Of a DNA stretch of 64,000 nt, positions 54,121-58,705 are shown piece after piece (position 1 is the stretch's first letter; every line of letters begins with the position of its first letter). The notes below the pieces were generated by a model, which ran no database searches, had not been told where the DNA came from, and worked only from the letters and a program-made list of their open reading frames with translations. Source of the DNA: a bacterium. Its GTDB lineage: Bacteria > Planctomycetota > Planctomycetia > Isosphaerales > Isosphaeraceae. The stretch covers positions 1 to 64,000 of the forward strand of contig WGMM01000030.1 of NCBI GenBank assembly GCA_016125085.1. Reading direction: 5' to 3'. The position numbers and the translations under genes are program-made.

Positions 54121-56241
54121 ATGAGCCTGCCCATTCTCGGTGAGATGCCCTGTTCTTCCCGCCAGGCGGTGAGGAACGATCCGAACGTGGCGCCAACAAT
54201 GCTGCCCGTGCTCGAGGACGAGCCCGTCCGCAGGCCCCATCTTCCGATGACGCGTCAGGAAATGCTCGCCCGAGGCTGGAACGATGTCGACATCGTTTTC
54301 GTCACCGGCGATGCCTATATCGATCATCCTGCATTTGCGGCCGGTGTGCTCGGCCGGGTGCTGGAAGCTGGCGGTTTTCGGGTCGGGATCGTGGCCCAGC
54401 CGGATTGGCGATCGGCCGACCCGTGGCGCGAATTCGGCCGCCCGCGCCTGTTCTTCGCCATTTCGGCGGGGAATATGGACAGCATGATCAATCATTACAC
54501 GGCCAACAAGAAGGTCCGCAATGACGACGCCTACAGCCCGGGCGGTCGGATCGGGCTGCGGCCGGACAGGGCCACGCTGGTCTATTCCCAGCGTGCTCGT
54601 GAGGCTTTCCCCGGCGTGCCCGTGATCGCCGGCGGTGTCGAAGCCAGCCTTCGCCGTCTTGCGCATTACGATTACTGGTCGGACACGGTCCGAAAGTCCA
54701 TCCTGCTCGATTCCAAGGCTGATCTGGTCGTCTTCGGCATGGGTGAGCAGCCGATCCTTGAAATTGCGAAACGGCTTGCAGCGGGCGAATCGGTTCGCGA
54801 CCTGCGCGACATGCGTGCCGTGGCTTACTGCATGGGCGCGAAGGAAACGCCGCCGGAAGACGCCCTTCGCCTGCCGAGCTACGAAGAAGTCAAAACCGAC
54901 AAGGCGGCATTCGTCAAGGCGACGCGGACGATCCACCAGGAAACCAATCCGCTCAACGCCAAGCGGCTCGTGCAGTATCACGACCGCCAGGCTGTCGTGG
55001 TGAATCCGCCCGGGCTGCCGATCAGCCAGGACGACATGGACCGGATCTACGGCCTGCCCTACACCCGCAAGCCTCATCCAAGATACACCGAACGCATTCC
55101 GGCGTTCGAGATGATCAAGGACTCGGTCACGATCATGCGGGGCTGCTTCGGCGGCTGCACGTTCTGCTCGATCACGGCTCACCAGGGGCGGATCATTCAG
55201 TCGCGCAGCCAGGAATCGATCCTGGCCGAACTGAAGCGGATGACCGAGGATAAGGACTTCAAGGGCGTCGTTTCGGACATCGGCGGGCCGACGGCCAACA
55301 TGTACGAGATGCGCTGCACGCGCCCCGAGGTCGAGGCGAAGTGCAAGAGGCTCAGTTGCGTGCACCCGAAGGTGTGCAAGCTGCTGGGCACGGATCACGG
55401 CCCGCTCGTCGATCTGATGAAGAAAAGCCGCGACGTGCCGGGCATCCGCAAGGTGCTCGTCGCCTCAGGTGTGCGGATGGATCTGGCGCAGCGGTCGCCG
55501 GAATACATGAAAGAACTGGCCGCGCACCATGTGGGCGGCACGCTCAAGGTGGCTCCGGAACACACCGACCCGGAAGTTCTGCGGCGGATGAAAAAGCCGG
55601 AGATCGAAGATTATTCCGGCTTCGACAAGCTCTTCCGCGAATCGGCCGCCGCCGCGGGCAAGAAAATGACGACCGTGCCCTACTTCATCGCCAGCCACCC
55701 CGGCAGCGACATTCACGCCATGATCCATCTGGCGTTATTCCTGAAGCGAAACGGCTATCGGCCTGACCAGGTGCAGGACTTCATCCCCGCCCCGTTCGAC
55801 ATCGCCACTTGCATGTACTACACGGGCATCGACCCGATGACGGGCGAAGAGGTGCATGTGGACCGCCAGCTCAAGGACCGCAAGATGCAGCGGGCCCTGC
55901 TGCAGTTCTTCAAGCCGGAAAATTATTTTGCCGTGCGTGATGCACTGCTCAAAGCAGGTCGAGGAGACCTGATCGGCTCGGGCTGCGACTGCCTGATTCC
56001 GTCGAATCCGCCGCGTGAGGCCTTGATGGCCCGCATGAAAAAAGCCAATGCGGCCTTGACGGAAGGCCGCTACGTTCACACTATCGAAGGTTCTCCCGAG
56101 CGTCCGGCATCGCGGCCCGGCAAGGGCGATAAGCCAGCCCCGCGCTCGGCCGGTCAGCCCGGTCAGCCTGAGAGGTCTGGCGGCGGATATCGCCCGGGCC
56201 GGAAGTCGGCCCAGCGCCGCACGCGGCCAGGGTCGCGCTGA
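54121..56241 (+). CDS. YgiQ-family radical SAM protein
   Basis: The core has the [4Fe-4S] motif [19 protein letters not shown] (CxxxCxxC), the YgiQ N-terminal [30 protein letters not shown], FDNxxH-like [16 protein letters not shown], and the Cys-rich region [21 protein letters not shown]. YgiQ enzymes are radical SAM proteins of unknown substrate. The last 60 residues are a basic, Gly/Pro/Arg-rich tail ([20 protein letters not shown]) that could bind nucleic acid. The first 35 residues precede the family core, so a later start is possible. An RsmB-like gene follows 44 nt downstream. Confidence 0.93.
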
Positions 56242-56285
56242 ATCGAACACGTTCGAAGCAAAGTCACACGCGAATCGCAACGCAC

Positions 56286-57833
56286 ATGAAACCCAGAAAG
56301 CCGCGGCCCGCCGCGCAACGTCCGCCGAAACCAGCATTTCTGTCCGATCGCGGCCCGGCACGAATGAGGCAGCCGAGCGCATCGGATCTTTCGCGTGCCG
56401 GCGGCCACGTGGCGTCGACTCTCGCCCGGGAATACTGGGAGGCGCTCGAAAACCCGAAAGGCAAAACGCTTTCGGCGATTCTGCGCGAGCATCCCGAGGC
56501 CATGGGCCTGCTCAACGATTTTCAGAAGTTCAAGACTCGCCAATATCTCGCGGCCATGGCCCGCTGGTACGGCTGGCTTCGAGGTCACTCCCAGCGCCTG
56601 ACCGAATGGCCTCTGCTGCTGGCCTCGCTGCTGGAATCCGACCGGGTGGACGATACCCACCGAGCCTGGGCACGCCGCTGCAACATCGCGCCGGAACGGC
56701 TGATGGCTCTTGGTGATGCGCCTAACTGGGTCGTTCGGGGCGAAGGTTATCGCCGGCTCGTCGGTTCGAATCGTGCCAATGTCGACCCATGGTCGCTCCT
56801 TCCGGGCTGGCTGCGCGGCCATTTGCCCGCTCCGCCGCCCGACGAATCGCCCAAGGACTGGCACACGGCGATTCTCGAAGGTTTTCAATATCGCCCTTAT
56901 CGCTGGGTGCGGCTGCGCGATATTCAGAAGAACCGGACGATCGAAGACACGCTGGAAAAGCTTGAGGAACAGACCGGTCAGTCTGCCTGGCGGGCCCGGA
57001 AAATGCCTGCCGCCGTGCGATGGCCGGTGCACGTGAAGCTGCCCGAAGCACGCGAGCCCTGGCCCTGGATCGCCCAGGATTTCAGCGATCAGATCACGGC
57101 GCAGGTGTGCGACCCCGACCCTGGCGAACGCTGGTGCCTGATCGAGCCAAGGGATTTGAGCATCGCCATCGACCTGGCCGACCGCATGAAGGGCAAGGGT
57201 GTCGTCGTGGTCGTGTCGGCGAACGAACGGCTCCTTCGCGCGGCAGCCCAACTGGCCAAACGCTGTGGGTGCCACAACGTGACGACCCGTGGTATGGCTG
57301 GAGACAATCTGCCGGGCAAGCCGGGAATATATGACGGCGTACTCGTGGACATGCACGGCATGGGTATGGACCGCTGGCGCAGCCAGCCGGAAAGCCGGCT
57401 GAGGTGCGACGAGCGCCAGCTCAAGACGGTCGTGGCCGCGATCGACGCCCGCCTGCGATCGGCTGAGAAAGCCCTTAAGTCCGGCGGTCGTCTGGTTTAT
57501 GCGGTCGGTTCGCTCACGGCCGACGAGACGGATTCGGTCGCGGACCGGTTCGTGACCGAAAACCCGGGGATGACACCGCTGGAGTTCGAAGATCCCCGCA
57601 CCGGCAAACTCGGGCCGCCACGTTTGCACTTCTGGCCTGAGCGGGACTGGGGCGAAGCCGTCTTCATCGCCCGGTGGACGAAATCGACACCATTGTCGGC
57701 GGGCGAACGAAAAGGTAACGTGTCGGCAGAGCGGCCCGCAAAGCCCAAAGCCAGAAGCAAGAAACCTCAAGTGACAGAGGTGGCCGAGGAATCGACCGAA
57801 TCTGCCACACCGCCCACTGACGCCGAAGCATGA
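56286..57833 (+). CDS. RsmB/NOP-family pseudomethyltransferase (catalytic Cys residues missing)
   Basis: The fold order is RsmB-like: an N-terminal helical region, LPGWLRGHLPAPPPDESPKDW... (the usual PxWL), then GERWCLIEPRDLSIAIDLADRMKGKGVVVVVSANERLLRAAAQLAKRCGCHNV and VLVDMHGMGMDRWRSQPESRLRCDERQLKTVVAAIDARLRSAEKALKSGGRLVYAVGSLTADETDSVADRFV. In active 5-methylcytosine rRNA enzymes these segments read LCAAPGGKT, DAPCSGTG and STCS. Here the PGGK SAM loop, the motif IV Cys and the motif VI Cys are all replaced. The 515-aa protein should keep an RNA-binding fold without this chemistry. It overlaps the bestrophin start (ATGA). Confidence 0.8.
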   Translation: MKPRKPRPAAQRPPKPAFLSDRGPARMRQPSASDLSRAGGHVASTLAREYWEALENPKGKTLSAILREHPEAMGLLNDFQKFKTRQYLAAMARWYGWLRGHSQRLTEWPLLLASLLESDRVDDTHRAWARRCNIAPERLMALGDAPNWVVRGEGYRRLVGSNRANVDPWSLLPGWLRGHLPAPPPDESPKDWHTAILEGFQYRPYRWVRLRDIQKNRTIEDTLEKLEEQTGQSAWRARKMPAAVRWPVHVKLPEAREPWPWIAQDFSDQITAQVCDPDPGERWCLIEPRDLSIAIDLADRMKGKGVVVVVSANERLLRAAAQLAKRCGCHNVTTRGMAGDNLPGKPGIYDGVLVDMHGMGMDRWRSQPESRLRCDERQLKTVVAAIDARLRSAEKALKSGGRLVYAVGSLTADETDSVADRFVTENPGMTPLEFEDPRTGKLGPPRLHFWPERDWGEAVFIARWTKSTPLSAGERKGNVSAERPAKPKARSKKPQVTEVAEESTESATPPTDAEA

Positions 57834-58705
57834 TCACATACGACCCGCATCATTTCTGGTCGCACATTTTCGCGGGTCGTGAATCTCGCATCGAACGCAT
57901 CCTGTCGCGGGTTTTCCCGCTGACGCTCTGGGCGTTCTTCATCGAATTCTTCGCGCTGGATGAGCCGTTTGTCGGTACGACTTCTCTCGTTTCGATGATC
58001 GGCGCCGCGCTTGGCTTTCTGCTGGTGTTCCGGATCAACGCCTCCAACGAACGCTACTGGGAAGGCCGCAAGCTCTGGGGCGCGATGATCAACACCTGCC
58101 GCAACCTTGTGCGGTCAGTGCATATCCATCTCGTCGACGACCGCCGCAAGCAGGAAGAGATCACGGTCTGGGTCATCGTCTTCGCCTATGCCACGATCGA
58201 AGTCCTGCGCGGCCGCAAGGGTATCGGCCCCATGGCTCGCCGGCTGCCTTCCGAGGAAGTGGAATGGGTGCTTTCCACCGATCATGTGCCTTATGCCGTC
58301 GCCACGCGCATCACGGGGCTTTTGCGTCAGGCGAAAGACGAAGGACAGATCACCGATATCGTTTATCTGACCATGGATAATCTGGTCAAAGAACTAATCG
58401 ATATCCTCGGCGGCTGCGAACGCATTCACTTCACGCCTCTGCCATTCTCTTATATGGTACACCTGCGGCGGGCCCTGATCGTTTACTCGATCGCCCTGCC
58501 TTTCGGGATCACCAGCCCGCACTGGTACACCTCGGTGGCCGAGTGCCTGCTCGTCAATTTCATCTTCTTCGGCGTCGAGGAGATCGGCGTCGAAATCGAA
58601 GACCCCTTCGGCGAAGACCCCAACGACTTGCCGCTGGAACGTTTCTGCGAAACGATCGAGCGCAACCTCATGGCTCTTGGCGCGCAACCGCTGCCGAACT
58701 CTTGA
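57830..58705 (+). CDS. Bestrophin-family chloride channel
   Basis: This 291-aa membrane protein has the conserved bestrophin core: ALGFLLVFRINASNERYWEGRKLWGAMINTCRNLVR, helix LRRALIVYSIALPFGITSPHWYTSVAECLLVNFIFFGVEEIGVEIEDPFGEDPNDLPL with the acidic DPFG..xND Ca2+-site-like stretch, and IERNLMALG at the end. Bacterial bestrophins form pentameric anion channels. Its ATG overlaps the pseudomethyltransferase stop. A cupin-like gene follows 44 nt downstream. Confidence 0.92.
   Translation: MITYDPHHFWSHIFAGRESRIERILSRVFPLTLWAFFIEFFALDEPFVGTTSLVSMIGAALGFLLVFRINASNERYWEGRKLWGAMINTCRNLVRSVHIHLVDDRRKQEEITVWVIVFAYATIEVLRGRKGIGPMARRLPSEEVEWVLSTDHVPYAVATRITGLLRQAKDEGQITDIVYLTMDNLVKELIDILGGCERIHFTPLPFSYMVHLRRALIVYSIALPFGITSPHWYTSVAECLLVNFIFFGVEEIGVEIEDPFGEDPNDLPLERFCETIERNLMALGAQPLPNS

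Follow-up and report, generated by a model that had tools for sequence, protein, structure and literature searches.

Are bacterial rRNA methyltransferases kept for the methyl mark or for binding to the ribosome? This long-standing question, usually approached with laboratory mutants, is raised by a gene in the window analysed here, a stretch of 64,000 nucleotides (contig WGMM01000030.1, assembly GCA_016125085.1) from a planctomycete. The family was identified as Isosphaeraceae from the named relatives Singulisphaera acidiphila, Paludisphaera soli, and Tautonia sociabilis. The gene resembles rsmB, and its catalytic motifs are degenerate. A sequence-only reading had proposed a pseudoenzyme that was either structural and rRNA-binding or linked to a neighbouring bestrophin channel. 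We asked what the gene encodes, how widely its active site has been lost, and which role would fit an RsmB that cannot methylate.

Identity of the Window Gene

The features of the locus are collected in Table 1. The open reading frame is uninterrupted from its ATG, with zero internal stops, as the sequence-only reading had stated. The protein matched PF01189 with 46–49 bits against a curated cut-off of 27, and it matched the rsmB model TIGR00563 with an E value of 7e-16 but far under the equivalog cut-off. Its best solved relatives by sequence are RsmB/RsmF/NOP2-type enzymes. Structure prediction had been suggested as a check; an AlphaFold model was built from an alignment of 28 relatives and reached a pLDDT of 84.8 and a pTM of 0.81. 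The top PDB matches of the model were P. horikoshii PH0851 (2yxl) and E. coli Fmu (1sqg/1sqf), with a TM of 0.74 against 1sqg (normalised by target length). As the match spans about 450 columns, the N-terminal domain is included in the predicted Fmu-like fold. By descent, the protein belongs to the RsmB family, given the PF01189 and rsmB matches and the Fmu fold with its N-terminal domain. It is also the one-to-one ortholog of the RsmB with a full active site in relatives, many of which have the YgiQ neighbour in common. The minus strand carries an open frame of 535 aa opposite the gene (56163-57770), likely a side effect of codon bias.

Table 1. Coordinates of the RsmB-like gene, its motifs, and its neighbours in the window.
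Feature	Position	Strand	Remarks
YgiQ-family radical SAM gene	54121..56241	+	Immediately upstream of the RsmB gene
RsmB-like gene, degenerate active site	56286..57833	+	515 aa; PF01189/TIGR00563 matches and predicted fold
N-terminal helical domain, Fmu-like in the model	56463..56825	+	About aa 60-180; columns conserved in active relatives are retained 0.82 on average in inactive ones
Degenerate motif I, IEPRDLS	57141..57161	+	aa 286-292; GAGGK-type in active relatives
Motif II acidic residue lost, Ser311	57216..57218	+	Asp in active relatives
Degenerate motif IV, DMHGMG	57348..57365	+	aa 355-360; DAPC[ST][AG] in active relatives
Degenerate motif VI, AVGS	57501..57512	+	aa 406-409; VC[ST] in active relatives
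Bestrophin gene (PF25539)	57830..58705	+	Overlaps the RsmB gene by ATGA

Catalytic Motifs of the Window Copy

The readings of motifs I, IV, and VI as IEPRDLS, DMHGMG, and AVGS were correct, as was the claim that both Cys residues and the SAM loop are missing. Inside motif VI, position 408 of the nucleophile is Gly. The release Cys of motif IV is replaced by Gly358, and the preceding Pro357 has become His. The SAM-binding Gly/Lys loop of motif I and the motif II acid are gone (IEPRDLS, Ile293, and Ser311). The further claim that every catalytic motif is lost goes slightly too far, as the QD of motif VIII (D265) and D355 of motif IV survive in the window copy. D355 is His in the two sister genomes. 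Judged by these residues, SAM binding or cytosine attack by the window protein cannot be expected.

The motifs of the window copy are not a sequencing error, since two further genomes of the genus (65–67% identity) show degeneracy at the same positions. L162 and L163, both of the window's genus, carry the record title ‘Candidatus Kuenenia stuttgartiensis isolate ...’, yet rpoB places both with Isosphaeraceae; mislabelling is probable.

Distribution in Isosphaeraceae and Beyond

The RsmB ortholog was present as one copy in 41 of 45 Isosphaeraceae genomes and in 26 of the 26 high-quality ones (completeness of 90% or more, contamination of 5% or less). A complete active site (GAGGK, motif II Asp, DAPC, and VC[ST]) was observed in 13 genomes of nine genera; ‘active’ here means the full set of catalytic residues by sequence and not a measured activity. 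The nucleophilic Cys of motif VI was absent in 26 genomes of 11 genera; seven of these genomes retain the motif IV Cys, and 19 have neither. Cultured members fall on both sides: Singulisphaera acidiphila has a complete site, and Paludisphaera soli and Tautonia sociabilis have inactive copies. Conservation of the substitutions had been the first check proposed, and the degeneracy extends over the whole genus. DAPCSG in close relatives had been named in advance as evidence against a pseudoenzyme. At the family level such evidence exists, as DAPC and the motif VI Cys are both intact in nine other genera, but not within the genus. The window copy is therefore a derived loss and not an ancestral non-enzyme.

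Victivallales/Lentisphaerae MAGs (L187, 5866-7287; L188, 4367-5653) also encode RsmB proteins of this subfamily whose motifs are complete (GAGGK, DAPCS, and TC/VC), which fits a complete ancestral site. Other planctomycete groups outside Isosphaeraceae showed canonical or near-canonical motifs at 36 loci, a biased sample that consists mostly of best-scoring matches. In three other planctomycete families (f4, f5, and f6), most of the genomes sampled had no PF01189 match at E 1e-8. This suggests outright loss of RsmB there, and the protein would then be dispensable in related lineages. Two f5 genomes (L160, L161) have an RsmF-like protein with complete motifs instead.

Selection and Residue Retention

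Pairwise dN/dS in the inactive clades was 0.03–0.40 where dS could be estimated, in the N-terminal and methyltransferase halves alike, and it was 0.04–0.18 for pairs with complete sites; the figures are rough because several dS values are saturated. In the methyltransferase half, some inactive pairs showed higher dN/dS than active ones. These values indicate that the inactive copies are under purifying selection.

Among the complete copies, 123 columns are at least 95% conserved. Eleven of the 16 catalytic-motif columns were lost in inactive copies, compared with 15 of the 107 elsewhere (Fisher p 1.1e-5); the catalytic-motif windows follow the known family motifs and were not picked by outcome, although the alignment had already been viewed when they were set. 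Inactive copies had a mean retention of 0.39 in the catalytic motifs; the remainder of the methyltransferase domain reached 0.78, and the N-domain with the linker 0.79. Directly past motif IV, W364, R365, P368, and R371 are retained, and in the N-domain R93, W94, W97, W128, W148, and W169 are retained. Decay is concentrated in the catalytic motifs, and most other conserved residues are kept.

It is unlikely that the inactive copies are functionless relics in slow decay after methylation was lost. Decay of this kind would fit the heterogeneous catalytic columns, where different inactive copies have replaced the nucleophile by Ala, Pro, Gly, Leu, or Val, and the dN/dS of several inactive pairs, which is slightly raised in their methyltransferase half. 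However, none of the inactive copies read has an internal stop in the conserved region, every high-quality genome keeps an ortholog, the dN/dS values of inactive pairs stay low, and inactive copies have persisted in 11 genera after the losses.

Target Site and Other Modification Enzymes

Regarding the target and ALTERNATIVES, C967 is present in the helix 31 sequence of 16S rRNA, GAGGCTACGCG, in genomes with complete and with inactive copies, wherever it is readable. A missing target base was rejected as the reason for inactivation on this conservation. The 16S rRNA of the window genome itself was not among the assembled sequence, and the C967 reading is that of its relatives. The helix 31 flank is CGCGCAAAACC in G011, G023, and G055 (L051, L054, and L057), and CGCGAAGAACC or CGCGAAAAACC in the others.

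A second, active rsmB had been suggested as a search target. The PF01189 search of the source genome gave no further RsmB/F-type gene, so the window gene is the sole one. A second match (22 bits, C27) was set aside as cyclopropane-fatty-acid-synthase-like, judged by eye. No second full-length RsmB/F-type enzyme was seen in the inactive genomes, and the remaining PF01189 matches in family genomes were short, near or below the cut-off, and present in both groups. PF10672 genes occur as often in active as in inactive genomes, which led us to reject replacement by a newly gained RlmI-type m5C enzyme. We also rejected a joint loss with the neighbouring RsmD system, since RsmD-type genes are retained in 43 of the 45 family genomes, in both groups alike.

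RsmD, which makes m2G966 on the adjacent nucleotide, might also be a partner. The dead RsmB could stimulate RsmD or another modifier of the stem-loop, in the way that METTL14 supports METTL3, and the wide retention of RsmD-type genes beside the adjacency of 966 and 967 would allow this. We regard such a scaffold role as quite unlikely. RsmD acts alone in E. coli, and genomes whose RsmB has all its catalytic residues contain RsmD-type genes just as often, which leaves no particular tie between these genes and RsmB inactivation.

Number of Losses and Order of Cysteine Loss

In the rpoB tree, the inactive genomes fall in three places. A single inactive clade was not rejected with rpoB alone (AU p 0.16), but a single ancient loss was rejected with rpoB and rpoC together (2679 columns, AU p = 0.005). 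The best tree of the combined data contains three losses. From its base upward, it shows the window genus, then G022 with a complete site, and then the inactive g3 and g8 with g11 and g12. In the crown, the complete members (nine genomes) are sister to the inactive g5, g6, g13, g14, and g17. A tree that unites clades A and B, the two larger inactive groups, through one loss was disfavoured but not rejected (p 0.077). On these trees, at least two independent losses are firm, and three is the best estimate. In several genera rpoB and rpoC are not adjacent, and rpoC was located there by search.

NSUN/RsmB enzymes use the motif VI Cys for attack on the cytosine and the motif IV Cys to free the product; a release-Cys mutant forms a stable covalent protein–RNA complex (PMC6409601), and mutations of the recycling Cys frequently prove harmful (PMC4510066). 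Among 39 readable proteins, the nucleophile is always accompanied by the release Cys, and seven have the release Cys without the nucleophile; these proteins share ancestry and are therefore not 39 independent tests. Clade A (g5, g6, g13, g14, and g17) contains loss intermediates in four genera. The order of loss read from these proteins matches what selection against covalent trapping would predict. In G010, regain of a Cys is as simple as repeated losses. L023 (G005) has IYVCPT at motif VI, with a Cys one residue ahead of the nucleophile position, and has lost the release Cys.

The seven copies with a motif IV Cys, six of them as DAPC, might be taken to have a changed chemistry, either with this Cys as nucleophile, as in DNMT enzymes (PMC6409601), or with the fold used for a different reaction. 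This is very improbable, as the motif I Lys is gone in all seven and the motif II Asp in most, and the window protein has neither Cys, nor the Lys, nor the motif II Asp.

Gene Neighbours

The RsmB stop overlaps the bestrophin ATG at 57830-57833, as had been described. Bestrophin adjoins the RsmB gene in all three readable genomes of the window genus, with ATGA in two of them and the overlap lost in G002. Outside the genus it adjoins only in G023 (locus L007), where RsmB keeps a complete active site, and no bestrophin was found within 6 kb of the RsmB gene at other loci. The YgiQ-family gene is more widely shared, lying directly upstream in many family members, active or inactive. The proposal that a dead RsmB regulates or couples to the channel draws on the adjacency within the genus and is scarcely credible, given the complete RsmB beside bestrophin in G023, the missing neighbour elsewhere, and the unconserved overlap. 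The adjacency is a local feature of the genus with no relation to inactivation, and it does not support coupling.

A Putative Non-Catalytic Role in 30S Assembly

The sole RsmB/F-type gene, the genus-wide degeneracy, the repeated inactivation in the family, and the purifying selection all argue for the pseudoenzyme that the sequence-only reading had proposed. The window gene is the Isosphaeraceae ortholog of the 16S C967 m5C methyltransferase RsmB/Fmu, turned into a pseudoenzyme that is probably retained to serve 30S assembly in some way other than methylation. The protein preserves the predicted Fmu fold and most of the non-catalytic conserved residues. It would still dock on nascent 16S rRNA around helix 31 and would aid early 30S assembly through binding alone. 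We infer that C967 is left unmethylated in species with an inactive copy.

The RNA binding and assembly role is proposed by analogy. E. coli without rsmB builds up 17S pre-rRNA, and RsmB works on an early 30S intermediate (PMC7056703). RlmB and RlmKL continue to promote subunit assembly when their catalysis is abolished (PMC11194073). A counter-case is catalytically dead KsgA, which stalls 30S maturation (PMC9032327). The lack of PF01189 matches in most sampled genomes of f4, f5, and f6 and the raised dN/dS in the methyltransferase half of some inactive pairs also weigh against the assembly role.

More specifically, we tentatively propose that within Isosphaeraceae RsmB turned at least twice, and probably three times, into an obligately non-catalytic ribosome assembly factor. 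The nucleophile would have been lost first and the release Cys later, since an enzyme that lost them in the opposite order would become covalently stuck on rRNA.

Compared with RsmB/Fmu/Sun (16S m5C967; PF01189, TIGR00563, 1sqg/1sqf), the window protein shares the predicted two-domain fold of about 450 columns, motif VIII, the residues flanking the motifs, and the single copy, and its orthologs in the same family retain the active site. It differs in the loss of the motif I loop and Lys, the motif II Asp, the motif IV Pro-Cys, and the motif VI Cys. Separation of ribosome maturation from methylation, putative here, is common to E. coli RlmB(E198A) and RlmKL (PMC11194073), but those are engineered laboratory mutants acting on 23S rRNA, whereas the Isosphaeraceae copies are natural, repeatedly evolved forms of a 16S enzyme. 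NSUN1/NOP2 and NSUN4–MTERF4 (PMC9561284, PMC3916286) belong to the same m5C fold family and have non-catalytic roles in ribosome biogenesis, which are putative for the bacterial copies; they keep their catalytic residues, unlike the inactive Isosphaeraceae copies. No description of inactive RsmB in Isosphaeraceae was found in the literature searched, which lay mostly outside subscription journals.

Implications

Evolution appears to have repeated the separation-of-function experiment in this family, with complete-site relatives in sister genera. The order of cysteine loss agrees with a clean prediction of the two-cysteine mechanism. Annotation pipelines that label all PF01189 proteins as m5C methyltransferases would be wrong for about half of the Isosphaeraceae genera. 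If the proposed role is true, the conserved value of RsmB in Isosphaeraceae would be its binding and not its methyl mark.
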